Position numbers and translations under genes: made by a program. Under the pieces are notes generated by a model. It did no database searches, had not been told where the DNA came from, and saw nothing but the letters and a program-made list of their open reading frames with translations. Shown here in pieces: positions 27,247-44,965 of a DNA stretch of 45,880 nucleotides. The DNA lies in NCBI GenBank assembly GCA_018335795.1, contig JAGXRP010000020.1, positions 1 to 45,880 on the forward strand, given 5' to 3'. The first letter of the stretch is position 1. Every line of letters starts with the position of its first letter. This DNA comes from Desulfobulbaceae bacterium. Lineage in GTDB: Bacteria > Bacteroidota > Ignavibacteria > Kapaibacteriales > UBA2268.

Positions 27247-27280
27247 AACACCCCCTAACCCCCTCTTACAAGAGGGGGAA
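27247..27280. repeat. 34-bp palindromic repeat element (intergenic copy)
   Basis: This contains the hairpin CCCCCTCTT / AAGAGGGGG (27259-27278) preceded by ACACCCCCTA. The same 34-bp element, with two mismatches and in reverse orientation, lies inside the coding sequence of the T9SS gene at 41824-41857. A second GC-rich hairpin (CCCTCTCC / GGAGAGGG, 27311-27329) follows. The 27011-27502 gap has no gene; besides these hairpins and the L25 terminator it is AT-rich. Confidence 0.85.
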
Positions 27281-40021: not shown

Positions 40022-40123
40022 AAGACACTCTTCAACAAAAAAATATTCACACTATTTGAGATAAATTACCCTTTCATGTGTATATTATATATATGGTTTT
40101 GTTAAAATTTGAAAAATGTTGAA

Positions 40124-42019
40124 ATGAAAGCACTAATTCCAATTTTTTTAATGTTTGTAGCTCTTGAAGGGTATTCCCAAAACGTATGGGAAAATGTATA
40201 TACAACATTTGGGACACCTATAAAGATAGAATGTGTCAATAGTGAAACATGTTTTATTTTAACGAAAGCTTTACCCACTAGAATATACAAAACAACAGAT
40301 GTAGGGAAATCTTGGGAGTTGTTGAATTCTATCAATAATAATACGGTTGAGGATATGAGTTGCCCTGATAGTGCAAATATTTTTCTAACATTTTTTGATG
40401 GTACAATTTATAAATCAAAAAATAAAGGTGAAAATTTCGAATCATTCAAATTAGAAGGAATCAATCATTCTAAGAATATCACTATGTACGATACTAATAT
40501 TGGTGTATTGCACAATGGATGGTATATTACTCATGACGGATGGAAAACCTTTCAGCTATTTAAAATTGCAACTGATGTAATTACGTATGATTATTTGTAC
40601 CCCCATTTCTTAAACGATTCGATGCTCTACGCAATAGTTAGGATATTCGACCAAAGAGAACCGCAGTATCAGGTACCTCCAATTGACAAGCCACGTATAA
40701 CAGATCATGTCAATCATTCTTTGATGAAATTAAATATAAATACTCTCGAATATGAGTTATTTTATATAGACCATCTGAGCGGAATTAGAGACTTTTTTGT
40801 TTTAGATGAACAAAATGTGTTTGTATGTGGTAAGAGCCACGAAATCAGTGGAGGCTCAGGTAATGATGCAATTTACAAAAGTACTGACGCAGGGAAAACC
40901 TGGAGAAGAGTGCTGGATTTATATACGGATAAAACAAAATATCAAGGACATTTTTATTCTCCATTTGGTTTGCAAAGCATAGCTTTCAAGGATAGTTTGA
41001 CAGGAATAGCTGTCGGGCAGTTCGGTAAAATTATTTATACTTACGATGGTGGCGAATCTTGGACTTATGAATCTAAATTACCTCCAAAATTGGGAGGCGG
41101 AGAAAGTAAACCTGCAACAATGCTTATCAGATATGCTGGTACGAATCCAATAATAGCTGCATTTAATGGCTCTATTCACCGATTACAAGAAGATAATCTC
41201 GCTCCCGGACCCGAGCATAAATACAGCATTACTGGTCGTGTTTGGGAAGGTGACAAAGGGCAGTCGGGTATTCCGATTTCATTAGATACATTTCGTGTTA
41301 CAATGACTGACAATGACGGCTATTATAGGTTTGAAAATCTAAAAGTGGGAACTTATCAAGTCAGGGCATTAAACAAATACTATGATGGTGGCAACCCAAC
41401 TTACTATTACAAGCCATTTGACTATACACCACTTGAATACACCATTGAACTCACCAGCGACACGACCGGATTTGACTTCAATGCCGAAGATTTGCGTACT
41501 TTTTACAAAGCCGAAGGCTACATATTTGACGACAAAGGACTGGGAGTTCCTGATATATTCCTAAGAACAGGCAGCAGCACAACCACGACTGATGAAAGTG
41601 GTCGCTTTGAATTCCCCAAAATCGAATCAAGACTTACTTTCGACGTTATTCCCTATTCGGAGGAGCTTGCATTTTCGCCTTCAAGTCACAGAATAAACCT
41701 AATCACAGGCGACACAACAGATTTGCTCTTCACTGCCACCCCTACCACCAGCGTTTGGGAAATTGCAAATAGTTCAAGTTTAATTCTGCATCCAAATCCG
41801 GCAAGCGAATATATTGAAATTATTTCCCCCTCTTTTAAGAGGGGGTCAGGGGGTGTTAAAATTTACAACACGCTTGGTGAATGTGTGATTGAATTGCCAG
41901 ATATCCAACATCTTGAAGATGTTGGACATCTACAACGCATTGATGTGTCGCATCTACCCACTGGTTTGTATTTTGTTAGTGTTGGGCAAGTTTTTGATAA
42001 ATTTATGGTTATAAGATGA
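40124..42019 (+). CDS. T9SS-secreted Asp-box (BNR) protein, unit 1
   Basis: A 631-residue secreted protein. The signal peptide is MKALIPIFLMFVALEGYSQ (ATG 40124 chosen; a TTG at 40109 would precede it). A beta-propeller with Asp-box-like blades follows: IYKTTDVGKSWELL, IYKSKNKGENFESF, IYKSTDAGKTWRRV and IYTYDGGESWTYES. Two carboxypeptidase-regulatory-like domains come next (about 360-430 ISGRVWEGDKG type, and 445-530 AEGYIFDDKGLG type), then a T9SS type A sorting domain (about 555-631: LILHPNPASEYIEI ... GLYFVSVGQVFDKFMVIR). The sorting domain contains two translated palindromic DNA elements. The stop overlaps the next gene by four bases. Confidence 0.9.
   Translation: MKALIPIFLMFVALEGYSQNVWENVYTTFGTPIKIECVNSETCFILTKALPTRIYKTTDVGKSWELLNSINNNTVEDMSCPDSANIFLTFFDGTIYKSKNKGENFESFKLEGINHSKNITMYDTNIGVLHNGWYITHDGWKTFQLFKIATDVITYDYLYPHFLNDSMLYAIVRIFDQREPQYQVPPIDKPRITDHVNHSLMKLNINTLEYELFYIDHLSGIRDFFVLDEQNVFVCGKSHEISGGSGNDAIYKSTDAGKTWRRVLDLYTDKTKYQGHFYSPFGLQSIAFKDSLTGIAVGQFGKIIYTYDGGESWTYESKLPPKLGGGESKPATMLIRYAGTNPIIAAFNGSIHRLQEDNLAPGPEHKYSITGRVWEGDKGQSGIPISLDTFRVTMTDNDGYYRFENLKVGTYQVRALNKYYDGGNPTYYYKPFDYTPLEYTIELTSDTTGFDFNAEDLRTFYKAEGYIFDDKGLGVPDIFLRTGSSTTTTDESGRFEFPKIESRLTFDVIPYSEELAFSPSSHRINLITGDTTDLLFTATPTTSVWEIANSSSLILHPNPASEYIEIISPSFKRGSGGVKIYNTLGECVIELPDIQHLEDVGHLQRIDVSHLPTGLYFVSVGQVFDKFMVIR
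41824..41857. repeat. 34-bp palindromic element inside the T9SS sorting domain
   Basis: Reverse-complement copy of 27247-27280 with two mismatches. In this frame it encodes most of the loop SPSFKRGSGGV between the first two strands of the sorting domain. The paralogue at 44256 has a different palindrome at the same place. Confidence 0.85.
41904..41926. repeat. 23-bp perfect palindrome inside the T9SS sorting domain
   Basis: TCCAACATCTT, a central G, AAGATGTTGGA. It encodes QHLEDVG in the second variable loop of the sorting domain. The paralogue has a different palindrome (44337-44364) in the equivalent loop. Confidence 0.85.
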
Positions 42020-42528
42020 TGAATCTGACTTCGCAAATTGGCGGTCTTGAAGGTGACGAAAATTGTACAGGTTTTACACAATCTGTTATAAATTGGGCAA
42101 CTTTCGGAATACCAATTTTACAGCCTGATAGCTCTGTTTCTTATTACCAATTTAATATATTGCCATGCCAAGATAAATGTAATTGGTTATATGGATTGGA
42201 GGAAGAAGGATATGCAGGTAAAAGAGCACTTCAAGATTATGACATCAAGTACGTTGATTATTATGGGTTAGATGAAATACAAGTAAATGTAAAATTTTTA
42301 GAAAATACATGAGAATGTAACATTGTGTCAACGATAGAAACTGATAATATGAGTATTTCGATTTCTTCAATCGAAGGGAGCCAACAAAAAAGTATCAAAA
42401 ATAATATACTCAAAGGAGAAAACTTATTTTATGTTGACATCAAAGAATTGCATACAGGCTTATATTTCATAAATGTTATTGTTAACGATGTAGTACTCAG
42501 AACAGAAAAGTTTATTTTAATTAGGTGA
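42016..42528 (+). pseudogene. Small T9SS-tailed protein, unit 1, broken by in-frame TGA
   Basis: Equivalent of the intact 169-residue gene at 44447-44956. The frame is the same throughout but a TGA (42310-42312) interrupts it after ...VKFLENT; the rest resumes in the same frame and ends GLYFINVIVNDVVLRTEKFILIR, a T9SS-type tail. The first part contains CQDKCNWLYGLEEEGY. The ATG overlaps the stop of the large gene by four bases and there is no signal peptide. It is either a nonsense pseudogene or two truncated peptides (a GTG at 42325 could restart). Confidence 0.75.
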
Positions 42529-42533
42529 TTGTC

Positions 42534-44450
42534 ATGAACAAAATTATTTTGTTTGCTTTATTTTTGGTGCTTATTACGAGTAATACTCATTCTCAGAATG
42601 TCTGGGAGTTGAATCTAAATATACCTGGAAACCACGCTACAACTATTGTAAGTTTGGATGAAAATAATTGTTATGTACTTGCCGGGACAGGCACTAATTA
42701 TCTCAACATATTTCATTCAGTTAACAAAGGTGAAAATTGGGATGTGTTGTATTCGAAGAAATATGATTTGACATTGTATCAGTTAAGCATCCCTGATTCA
42801 TTGCATCATTTTATTGCTTGTAATAATAGTACAATTCTCAAGTCAACTGATGGTGGAAAGAATTTCACAGAGCTTATTATTGACGGCATTAATCAAATAC
42901 GTGGCATTTCAATGTTAACTCAAGATGTTGGAGCTATTGCAAATCTTTCAATTTTAATAACAAAAGATGGATGGAATACTAATGATACTTTTAAAATTGA
43001 GAATGAAAACATTCATTATTCATATCGTCACCCAACTTTTATAAATGATTCTATACTATACTTAACATTAAGGATAGAAGACCTAAGAGACCTACAGTAT
43101 CATGAACCACCTGTTGACAAGCCCCTTATATCGGGGCATGTCAATAACTCATTTATGAAATTAAATATTAACACATTTGATTACGAGATATTTTATATAG
43201 ACCATTTCGATCATTTAGCTGATTTCTTTATTTTCAATGAACAAATCTTATTTGCATGTGGTTCAAGTAATTCAATCAGCGGTGGCACATGCCACGATGC
43301 AATTTATAAAAGTACAGATAGTGGCAAGACATGGCGAAGAGTGTTGGAATTGTACTCACATAGAAATAAATTTTATGACCATGATATTCCGCCTTTTGGA
43401 CTGCAAAGCATAGCATTCAAAGACAGTTTGACAGGTATAGCTGTTGGTCAGTTCGGTAAGATTGTCTATACTCATGACGGTGGCGAATCTTGGACTTATG
43501 AAAGCAAACTTCACGATTCAATAAGCAAGACAACACCGCCTACAATGCTCGTAAGATATGCTGATACAATTCCTATAGTTGCTACATTTACAGGATACAT
43601 TTATAGAATGATTGAAGATAATCTCGTTCCCGGACTCGAACACAAATACAGCATTAGCGGACGAGTTTGGGAAGGCGACAAAGGGCATGCCGGTATTCCG
43701 ATTTCATTAGACACATTCCGTGTAACAATGACCGATAAAGACGGCTATTACAGATTCGGAAATCTCAAAGAGGGAACTTATCAAGTCAGAGCATTGAATA
43801 AATACTATGATGGTGGCAACCCAACCTACTACTACAAGCCATTCGATTATACACCTCTTGAATATAACATTGAACTCACAAGCGACACGACAGGATTTGA
43901 TTTTAATGCTGAAGATTTACGTACTTTTTACAAAGTTGAGGGTTATATAGTTGACGACAAAGGACAAGGAATTCCTGACATCTTCCTCAGAACAGGCAGC
44001 AGTACAACCACGACTGATGAAAGTGGTCGCTTTGAATTCCCCAAAATCGAATCAAGACTTACTTTTGACGTTATTCCCTATTCGGATGTACTTACCTTTT
44101 CGCCTTCAAGTCACAGAATCAACCTAATCACAGGCGACACAACAGACTTGCTCTTTACAGCCACCCCTGCCACCAGCGTTTGGGAAAGTGCAAATAGCTC
44201 AAGCCTAATTCTGCATCCCAATCCGGCAAGCGAATATATTGAAATAGCTGTAGATATCAACCCTACGGTTAACCGTAGGGTTGATGAAGGTTCAGAAATC
44301 AAAATCTTCAATACTTTAGGCGAATGTTTATTGACCGTAGAGACAATTCATGAATTGTCTCTACAAAAAATTGATGTGTCGCATCTGCCCACGGGTTTGT
44401 ATTTTGTTAGTGTTGGGCAAGTTTTTGATAAATTTATGGTTATAAGATGA
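42534..44450 (+). CDS. T9SS-secreted Asp-box (BNR) protein, unit 2
   Basis: A 638-residue paralogue of the unit 1 protein, same order: signal peptide (MNKIILFALFLVLITSNTHSQ), Asp-box blades (IFHSVNKGENWDVL, ILKSTDGGKNFTEL, IYKSTDSGKTWRRV, VYTHDGGESWTYES), two regulatory-like domains, and a T9SS sorting domain. The N-terminal propeller has diverged from unit 1, whereas the last 280 residues are nearly identical except at two loops that hold different palindromes (44256-44285 and 44337-44364). ATG 42534 is chosen because it starts the signal peptide. The stop overlaps the next gene by four bases. Ligand unknown; a surface or matrix location is expected. Confidence 0.9.
   Translation: MNKIILFALFLVLITSNTHSQNVWELNLNIPGNHATTIVSLDENNCYVLAGTGTNYLNIFHSVNKGENWDVLYSKKYDLTLYQLSIPDSLHHFIACNNSTILKSTDGGKNFTELIIDGINQIRGISMLTQDVGAIANLSILITKDGWNTNDTFKIENENIHYSYRHPTFINDSILYLTLRIEDLRDLQYHEPPVDKPLISGHVNNSFMKLNINTFDYEIFYIDHFDHLADFFIFNEQILFACGSSNSISGGTCHDAIYKSTDSGKTWRRVLELYSHRNKFYDHDIPPFGLQSIAFKDSLTGIAVGQFGKIVYTHDGGESWTYESKLHDSISKTTPPTMLVRYADTIPIVATFTGYIYRMIEDNLVPGLEHKYSISGRVWEGDKGHAGIPISLDTFRVTMTDKDGYYRFGNLKEGTYQVRALNKYYDGGNPTYYYKPFDYTPLEYNIELTSDTTGFDFNAEDLRTFYKVEGYIVDDKGQGIPDIFLRTGSSTTTTDESGRFEFPKIESRLTFDVIPYSDVLTFSPSSHRINLITGDTTDLLFTATPATSVWESANSSSLILHPNPASEYIEIAVDINPTVNRRVDEGSEIKIFNTLGECLLTVETIHELSLQKIDVSHLPTGLYFVSVGQVFDKFMVIR
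44256..44285. repeat. 30-bp perfect palindrome inside the T9SS sorting domain
   Basis: ATCAACCCTACGGTT is followed at once by its exact reverse complement. In frame it reads INPTVNRRVD, filling the loop after EYIEIAVD. It occupies the site of the 34-bp element in unit 1. Confidence 0.9.
44337..44364. repeat. 28-bp perfect palindrome inside the T9SS sorting domain
   Basis: GTAGAGACAATTCA is followed by its exact reverse complement. In frame it gives VETIHELSL in the second variable loop, at the place where unit 1 has the 23-bp palindrome. Confidence 0.9.
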
Positions 44451-44956
44451 TGAATCTGACTTCGCAAATTGGCGGTCTTGAAGGTGATGAAAATTGTACA
44501 AGTTTTACACAATCAGTTATAAATTGGGCAACTTTTGGTATTCCAATTATAAGTGACAGTGGTGCCGTGTCATATTACCGATTTATCGAATTGGAATGTG
44601 AAGACAAATGTAGTTGGTTATATGGACTTAATAACGAAGGATTTTATGGTAGGCATAGAGTTGAATTCAATTATGAAAGCAGAAACTATTACGGAAATGA
44701 TGAAATAATTATGAAAACAGCAGTTCTGGAAAATGAAATCGCAATAGAAATAGATTCTGAAATTGCAAGCGATGATTTAGCCATATCGGTCTCTTCACTT
44801 CATGGAATTGAATTGGTCAACAAGAAGTTCAAATTATCTAAAGGAATTAATTTCTATCAGATTGAATCAAGTAAGCTGAATACAGGCTTTTATATTTTAA
44901 ATTTAAGATTAAATGGCTTAAATTTAAAGTCTGAAAAATTAATTATTATAAAATAG
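44447..44956 (+). CDS. Small T9SS-tailed protein without signal peptide, unit 2
   Basis: A 169-residue protein beginning MMNLTSQIGGLEGDENC. It has an internal block SVINWATFGIPI and CEDKCSWLYGLNNEGFYG (a CxxxC pair), and ends in a sorting-domain-like tail (about 105-169: DDLAISVSSLHGIELVNKK ... GFYILNLRLNGLNLKSEKLIIIK). The start overlaps the large gene's stop by four bases (ATGA). It has no leader peptide although its tail suggests T9SS export, so it may be an N-truncated gene, be produced as an extension of the upstream protein, or stay inside the cell. The domain is not recognised. Confidence 0.7.
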   Translation: MMNLTSQIGGLEGDENCTSFTQSVINWATFGIPIISDSGAVSYYRFIELECEDKCSWLYGLNNEGFYGRHRVEFNYESRNYYGNDEIIMKTAVLENEIAIEIDSEIASDDLAISVSSLHGIELVNKKFKLSKGINFYQIESSKLNTGFYILNLRLNGLNLKSEKLIIIK

Positions 44957-44965
44957 GTGGATGTT

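Follow-up and report, generated by a model that had tools for sequence, protein, structure and literature searches.

Short palindromic elements read in frame in two loops of a type IX secretion sorting domain

Two paralogous genes with palindromes in their sorting domains

The stretch of DNA analysed here (the window; 45,880 nucleotides of contig JAGXRP010000020.1, assembly GCA_018335795.1, Desulfobulbaceae bacterium, assigned by GTDB to the Kapaibacteriales) contains two large paralogous genes whose products end in a C-terminal sorting domain (CTD) of the type IX secretion system (T9SS), and the same two loops of this domain hold short palindromic DNA elements in both genes. The unit 1 gene, defined by its open reading frame (ORF) and translation, lies at 40109..42019 on the forward strand (start TTG 40109 or ATG 40124), and Pfam and NCBIfam profiles revealed BNR/Ycf48-like repeats, a CarboxypepD_reg-like domain, and a type A CTD in its product. 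The unit 2 gene (42525..44450, forward strand; start GTG 42525 or ATG 42534) was recognized as its paralogue by translation and profiles, the bodies of the two products being 64% identical in amino acids. TIGR04183 matched the CTD of unit 1 at 41789..42016 and that of unit 2 at 44214..44447 (both forward; 26.6 and 28.2 bits, curated cut-off 23), and PF18962 scored 40.3 and 39.5 bits (cut-off 27); by these profile scores both domains are T9SS type A CTDs, with a predicted role in secretion. They were sisters in a quick tree with the loops excluded (SH-aLRT 99).

Each of the four palindromes proposed in the first-pass annotation was recovered in its place by a palindrome scan, and the translations put all four (E1 to E4) in the open frame of the large genes. 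In unit 1, loop 1 (beta2-beta3) contains E1 (41824..41857, forward strand), a 34-bp unit with an asymmetric tail that is read SPSFKRGSGG and includes a palindrome of two 9-nt arms and a 2-nt loop at 41826-41845, and loop 2 (beta4-beta5) contains E2 (41899..41931, forward), with 16-nt arms that are 94% complementary and separated by 1 nt, read DIQHLEDVGHL. In unit 2, loop 1 contains E3 (44256..44285, forward), a perfect 30-bp palindrome (15+15) read INPTVNRRVD, and loop 2 contains E4 (44337..44364, forward), a perfect 28-bp palindrome (14+14) of the GTAG...CTAC double-foot type of repetitive extragenic palindrome (REP), read VETIHELSL. The 23-bp palindrome originally placed at 41904-41926 proved to be the core of E2, the full palindrome being longer, and the 34-bp extent given for E1, tail included, was borne out by recurrence of the whole unit outside genes. 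Patterns of E1, E2, and E3 occurred in none of 100 dinucleotide-preserving shuffles of the window, and an E4-like match in 4 of the 100 at the loose setting used. RNA folding z-scores were -6.0 for E2, -6.1 for E3, -5.1 for E4, and -1.1 for E1.

Modelled with AlphaFold2 from an alignment with 48 other sequences, the unit 2 CTD had seven strands with a mean predicted local distance difference test score (pLDDT) of 79, resembling the seven-stranded sandwich of known type A CTDs as given in the available text on RgpB (PMC4804311) and mirolase (PMC11285876); its top PDB matches were T9SS substrate CTDs (8glk_D and 8qb1_A, with E about 0.002; no match was as low as 0.001). E3 maps to the beta2-beta3 loop (residues 24-37; pLDDT below 50 at 26-35) and E4 at approximately residues 52-61, comprising the beta4-beta5 loop (54-59) and the adjoining strand ends. 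The loops of E1 to E4 flank the beta3-beta4 hairpin on either side, and profile and model together agree with the earlier view that the same two loops are involved in both paralogues. According to the available text of PMC11285876, the conserved functional motifs of Porphyromonas gingivalis CTDs are the C-terminus and the beta3-beta4 loop, the remaining loops being of varied length. The present domains differ from known type A CTDs in that their beta2-beta3 and beta4-beta5 loops contain repeat elements.

Concentration of hairpins in the two loops

To cover the lineage, CTDs of the source genome were taken as the best 150 of 215 candidates, loci of relatives as the best 80 of 196 relatives, and DNA matches in the source genome as the best 40 of 56, 40 of 44, and 40 of 80 candidates. 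A total of 94 CTDs were segmented (20 from the source genome, 9 from genome G001, 21 from HGW-Ignavibacteriae-1, i.e., G002, and 44 from other genera), and 14 further distinct CTDs (1 from the same genus, 13 from other genera) that could not be segmented lie outside this set. Element-family labels and the loop pattern are our own definitions, and a hairpin with a net score of at least 10 was called strong.

All 95 strong hairpins of the 94 CTDs were centred in the two loops, which make up 35% of the sequence (52 in loop 1, 43 in loop 2, and 0 elsewhere). Such a hairpin was present in 12 of the 20 CTDs from the source genome, 9/9 from G001, 19/21 from HGW-Ignavibacteriae-1, and 24/44 from other genera. 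Among the best 150 CTDs of the source genome, of which nucleotide similarity linked 19, 14 carried 24 hairpins of net score at least 9; the 21 scoring at least 10 all stood at the two loop places, in 12 CTDs of one lineage, and of the three scoring 9, one was E1 in loop 1 and two were in other CTDs. Across 527 kb of the source genome, hairpins of net score at least 11 numbered 20 in CTDs (33.4 kb), 8 in other coding DNA (435.5 kb; one a RAYT copy, see below, and one a broken CTD gene), and 47 in non-coding DNA (58.0 kb; 3 being contig-edge or broken CTD copies). Eleven arbitrary 20-kb stretches gave 2 hairpins in 204.6 kb of coding and 7 in 15.4 kb of non-coding DNA. The CTD share of coding hairpins has a binomial p of 1.5e-19, a nominal figure and not a true probability because the CTD copies are related.

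Element families and their copies outside the sorting domains

In the genus set (the 50 CTDs from the source genome, G001, and HGW-Ignavibacteriae-1), a nameable element was found in loop 1 of 47 and in loop 2 of 47. The 13 named families, with elements of about 24-46 bp, comprised seven in loop 1 (E1, E3, E5, E6, E10, E12, E13), six in loop 2 (E2, E4, E7, E8, E9, E11), and none in both. E10, E11, and E12 were single cases; the consensus of E11 and of E12 is the CTD copies themselves, and that of E13 was assembled by hand. CTDs of other genera have further palindromes in these two loops, and GTAG types are frequent in either one. Two reading frames were used for E9 within a single loop (C44 versus L180), which we take as evidence, from sequence, of independent entry into one loop. 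Degenerate elements were found in C32, C10, and C44; C21:70628 was element-free, and L245 had no element in loop 2.

The suggestion that copies should be sought elsewhere in the genome was rewarded for E1 and E4, and also for E5, E7, and E8 of paralogous CTDs, all of which occur outside CTDs; in the source genome, E2 (among the best 40 of 56 candidates) and E3 were met in CTDs or CTD remnants only. A second copy of E1 lies within the window itself (27247..27280, reverse strand) in no open frame of at least 60 aa. The 16 E1 core sites of the genome comprised 3 in CTD genes, 6 in no frame of at least 60 aa, 6 in frames of 62-88 aa, and 1 in a 181-aa frame, and several of them had the full 34-bp unit. 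All six E3 sites of the genome (at most 3 mismatches) were in CTDs; in relatives, one E3 copy lay about 14 nt after a CTD stop codon (G006) and another in a 70-aa frame (G020). Beyond the window, E2 was detected in CTDs or remnants at C8 (two copies), C9, C21, C6, C39, and C62 among the best 40 of 56 candidates. None of the eight examined non-CTD copies of E5 (five) and E7 (three) was in an ORF of 90 aa, and no flank was common with CTD copies in 3/5 for E5 and 1/3 for E7; four further non-CTD places of these families (C59:11145, C21:63291, C59:35377, and C77:91736) lie outside that count. Among the eight non-CTD E8 sites (best 40 of 80 candidates), six were in no ORF and two in ORFs of 126 and 137 aa, which may be spurious.

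Some further features of these elements were observed. At C14:12376-12417 of the source genome, E3 stands within a longer palindrome (ACCTT...AAGGT) resembling the outer arms of E5, as if elements were nested. As noted for C38:1687-1719, C1:59401-59433, and C22:49301-49344, bases like GTAGAACAT follow E7 in CTDs and are partly present at non-CTD copies; CTDs with E7 read MNVE and others IDVS, and the E7 unit may include the GTAGAACAT-like tail. Unit homologues in which the CTD is broken in loop 1 were found at C62:264-378 plus 2042-2104 of the source genome and at L175 and L176 of G001, the interrupting sequence having AGACAGCCTCT/GAGGCTGTCTCA-like ends; the break in C62 falls inside E1, as if an insertion sequence had picked the palindrome.

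E4 and REP-associated transposase genes

The E4 superfamily, searched as a 28-bp pattern, had 38 sites in four genomes (6, 11, 15, and 6), of which 27 were in CTD loops (26 in loop 2, one in loop 1), 10 were intergenic, i.e., in no open frame (3) or in a frame of 71-85 aa (7), and one was in a gene for a REP-associated tyrosine transposase (RAYT). With the 71-85 aa frames counted as intergenic, none of the 38 sites was in a gene other than those of CTD proteins and this one RAYT. Since the ends of E4 are GTAG and its reverse complement, E4 is, by its sequence, a double-foot GTAG REP. Unlike REPs, which are mostly extragenic and often number more than 100 copies, it was intergenic at 10 of 38 sites and had 6-15 sites per genome. 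E4 was in one frame at 27/27 CTD sites, even though the variant E4b has two open frames.

The RAYT with the E4 site (C60, L028), recognized through NF047646 at E 3e-20, was one of two RAYT genes found in the source genome; the second (C48, L336) contains a related GTAG palindrome in the other open frame, and thus both harbor an in-frame GTAG palindrome, in different frames. A further RAYT with an in-frame GTAG palindrome was detected in genome G012 (L339). In addition, the bases after E7 are GTAG in two CTD copies and GTA in 2/3 other copies, and E2 adjoins GTAG in some CTDs and not in L209, L214, and L226.

A phylum-wide search for a GTAG palindrome with an I-D/N-V/I codon pattern, covering one element type in one loop, gave matches in 19 of 395 genomes, 9 of the 395 (the source genome included) belonging to the family of the window. 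Outside this family, none of the 25 loci read, from 18 other genomes, was in a CTD context, so that this search gave no evidence of CTD hosting of the E4 type far from the window's family. These loci included seven RAYT genes (two of them encountered twice), a position immediately upstream of a RAYT, reading frames 99 and 117 aa long, sites in no frame of 90 aa, and a 977-aa ORF (L425, genome G052) with an in-frame GTAG palindrome, the only long coding host among them that is not a RAYT.

Replacement of loop contents between related genes

Thirteen ortholog-like pairs were compared, whose bodies had 70-95% identity across 200 aa or more and whose orthology was judged by body similarity; differences were read by eye from the loops, and certain genes entered more than one pair, with C14, L301, and L219 making up a trio. 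Loop 1 was different in 11/13 and loop 2 in 10/13, the loop 1 difference of L217/L231 being one that may be an expansion rather than a swap. Instead of the slow divergence expected of ordinary loops, these genes displayed replaced loops. L301 and L219, with bodies 95.2% identical, agree in loop 1 but not in loop 2; their CTD segments A and C agree at 0.80 and 0.77 and the last 300 nt of the body at 0.95, a pattern of flanks less alike than the body that CTD exchange would predict. Segments A and C are likewise less alike than the body in C1/L227. In L295/L208, segments A and C are kept (0.90 and 0.95) and loop 1 is different (0.68), and the CTD is kept with one loop different in C82/L236 and L217/L231 as well.

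Eighteen combinations of loop 1 and loop 2 families were observed, and all four combinations occurred in 13 of 100 family quartets. Between genera, the loops of the ten top pairs share identical runs of 24-27 nt, and their flank third positions agree at 0.30-0.54, around an all-pairs median of 0.41. Duplication of whole CTDs as the sole cause was rejected because well-supported sister CTDs (L295/L208 and C82/L236) can differ in just one loop. Ordinary terminators were likewise rejected for the CTD copies, because these are inside the reading frame.

Origin and turnover of the loop elements

The core of the first-pass annotation, that palindromic elements were inserted or exchanged in frame at fixed loops of a T9SS domain, is supported, and the course we regard as probable is that two tolerant loops of a single CTD lineage received REP-like elements, which were reshuffled mainly by recombination among CTDs. 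The beta2-beta3 and beta4-beta5 loops of one type A lineage would thereby have become slots for REP-like palindromes, elements of about 24-46 bp having entered a loop in open frame and having been tolerated, presumably because the loops are not needed for recognition; consistent with such tolerance are the low pLDDT at residues 26-35 of loop 1 and the variable length of other CTD loops in P. gingivalis (PMC11285876, available text). A RAYT is the likely mobiliser of E4, because the two RAYT genes of the source genome carry in-frame GTAG palindromes of the E4 family. The element-filled CTD would then have come to be part of dozens of secreted proteins. Recombination among paralogous CTDs probably exchanged single loops, half-CTDs, or entire CTDs, in the pattern seen among the related genes, which would explain why orthologues have different elements in similar flanks. 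We infer both the founding insertion and the later exchange from these patterns. Repeated insertion and exchange had been offered together at the outset; exchange fits the present data, and repeated insertion is only partly shown, with no family common to both loops in the genus set. Because of this separation, most turnover after the founding insertions looks like exchange among paralogous CTDs.

Repeated independent transposition into both loops, with little recombination, could instead be the main cause of turnover. Loops replaced in CTDs whose other segments are as alike as the bodies (L295/L208, C82/L236, and L217/L231), the occurrence of distinct GTAG elements in both loops in other genera, and the two frames of E9 would all speak for it. 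We nevertheless consider it unlikely, given that 0/13 named families of the genus occur in both loops, that E4 keeps one frame throughout the CTDs, and that in L301/L219 and C1/L227 the CTD flanks are less alike than the bodies, as expected of module exchange. Selection on the palindromes as nucleic-acid features (mRNA hairpins or DNA sites), with the peptide incidental, is very improbable: three of the four window elements form strong hairpins, and element sequence is kept across genera where flank third positions are near the all-pairs background, but element sequences differ, some are degenerate (C32, C10, and C44), C21:70628 and loop 2 of L245 do without an element, 30/94 CTDs lack a strong loop hairpin, and placement tracks protein loops. 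Chance palindromes in ordinary, slowly diverging loops have next to no probability left. The 3/50 CTDs without a nameable element in loop 1 and the 3/50 in loop 2, and an E1 hairpin that is by itself ordinary for its base composition, are what chance could offer, against the shuffles, the hairpin densities, and the swaps between ortholog-like genes; exact elements common to the inside and outside of genes refute it.

Several observations weigh against insertion followed by recombination. The 30 CTDs without a strong loop hairpin count here too, as do six hairpins outside the loops at scores of 8-9 (80 named loci, read by eye) and 5/94 weak family labels resting on scores of 12-15. The CTD tree is poorly resolved, with 29 of 47 inner branches open, and no clean empty site or target duplication was seen by eye among CTDs with and without elements. 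In the source genome, E2, E3, and E6 were found only in CTDs or remnants (E2 and E6 among the best 40 of 56 and 40 of 80 candidates). In addition, 2/5 non-CTD E5 copies share four further bases with CTD copies, and 2/3 non-CTD E7 copies have some of the bases found after E7 in CTDs, indicating either units longer than the palindromes or copies derived from CTDs. As for the mobiliser, the NF047646 match of the C60 RAYT falls short of the curated cut-off, a search of the source genome with PF01797 gave no match, and comparison of ends and flanks revealed no GTAG foot as an element part in E1-E3 and E5-E9. G001 and G002 have nine E4 CTD sites each and one NF047646 match each, of another kind, and no RAYT like those of the source genome was seen in them; therefore, either E4 arrived there unaccompanied by such a RAYT or the gene was lost.

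A more far-reaching and rather doubtful possibility is that the two loops constitute a standing diversification system, in which REP-like in-frame peptides are shuffled among dozens of paralogous CTDs by recombination, and mobile palindromes are retained as coding cassettes through selection for varied sorting-signal surfaces (e.g., to evade phage, predators, or crosstalk). Taken together, the data suggest a continual rewriting of parts of a secretion signal by repeat DNA in this group of uncultured bacteria. Repeats usually called extragenic are here a regular, replaceable part of a sorting signal at many replicate loci in one genome. Two questions thereby become open to test: the way in which REPs come to lie in coding DNA, and the extent to which each part of a T9SS signal can vary freely. 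Furthermore, repeat DNA shapes CTD profile scores and alignments in this bacterial group, and caution is needed in their use.

Relation to known palindromic repeats

Rickettsia palindromic elements are protein-coding palindromes that are inserted in frame in many unrelated genes. The likeness to them drawn in the first-pass annotation holds, by description, for the palindrome read in frame inside genes and fails for the spread over unrelated genes, since nearly all present coding copies are in CTD loops or RAYT. Among known elements, E4 is closest to the GTAG double-foot REP. The available text of PMC6006769 describes double-foot REPs and also REPs inserted in frame in subclass 2.4 tnpAREP, and E4 resembles these REPs in its GTAG ends and in the Bacteroidota RAYT genes with in-frame palindromes. 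The in-frame host stressed in that text is the transposase gene, whereas here it is mainly a secretion signal, and most element families here have no GTAG foot. Intragenic GTAG/CGTC REPs were reported by Di Nocera et al. 2013 (PMC3733652), whose available text also mentions the Rickettsia elements and gives a case of different REPs at about the same recB site in two Xanthomonas species. Those REPs are likewise short palindromic repeats translated in frame; they lie, according to the same text, in scattered genes, many for DNA repair, whereas here one domain family has nearly all coding copies, in two fixed loops with swapped contents. A literature search whose reach excluded subscription papers and preprints found no published case of palindromic repeats in the loops of a T9SS CTD. 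In-frame REPs are already known, and T9SS CTD loops are a new recurrent host for known kinds of element.

Neighbouring features of the window

Downstream of unit 1, a small ORF at 42016-42522 has an in-frame TGA at about 42311, and its counterpart after unit 2 is one open ORF (44447-44956). A third unit starts at 44957 and seems to resemble the first two as far as about 45655, and the DNA that follows may be an insertion sequence.

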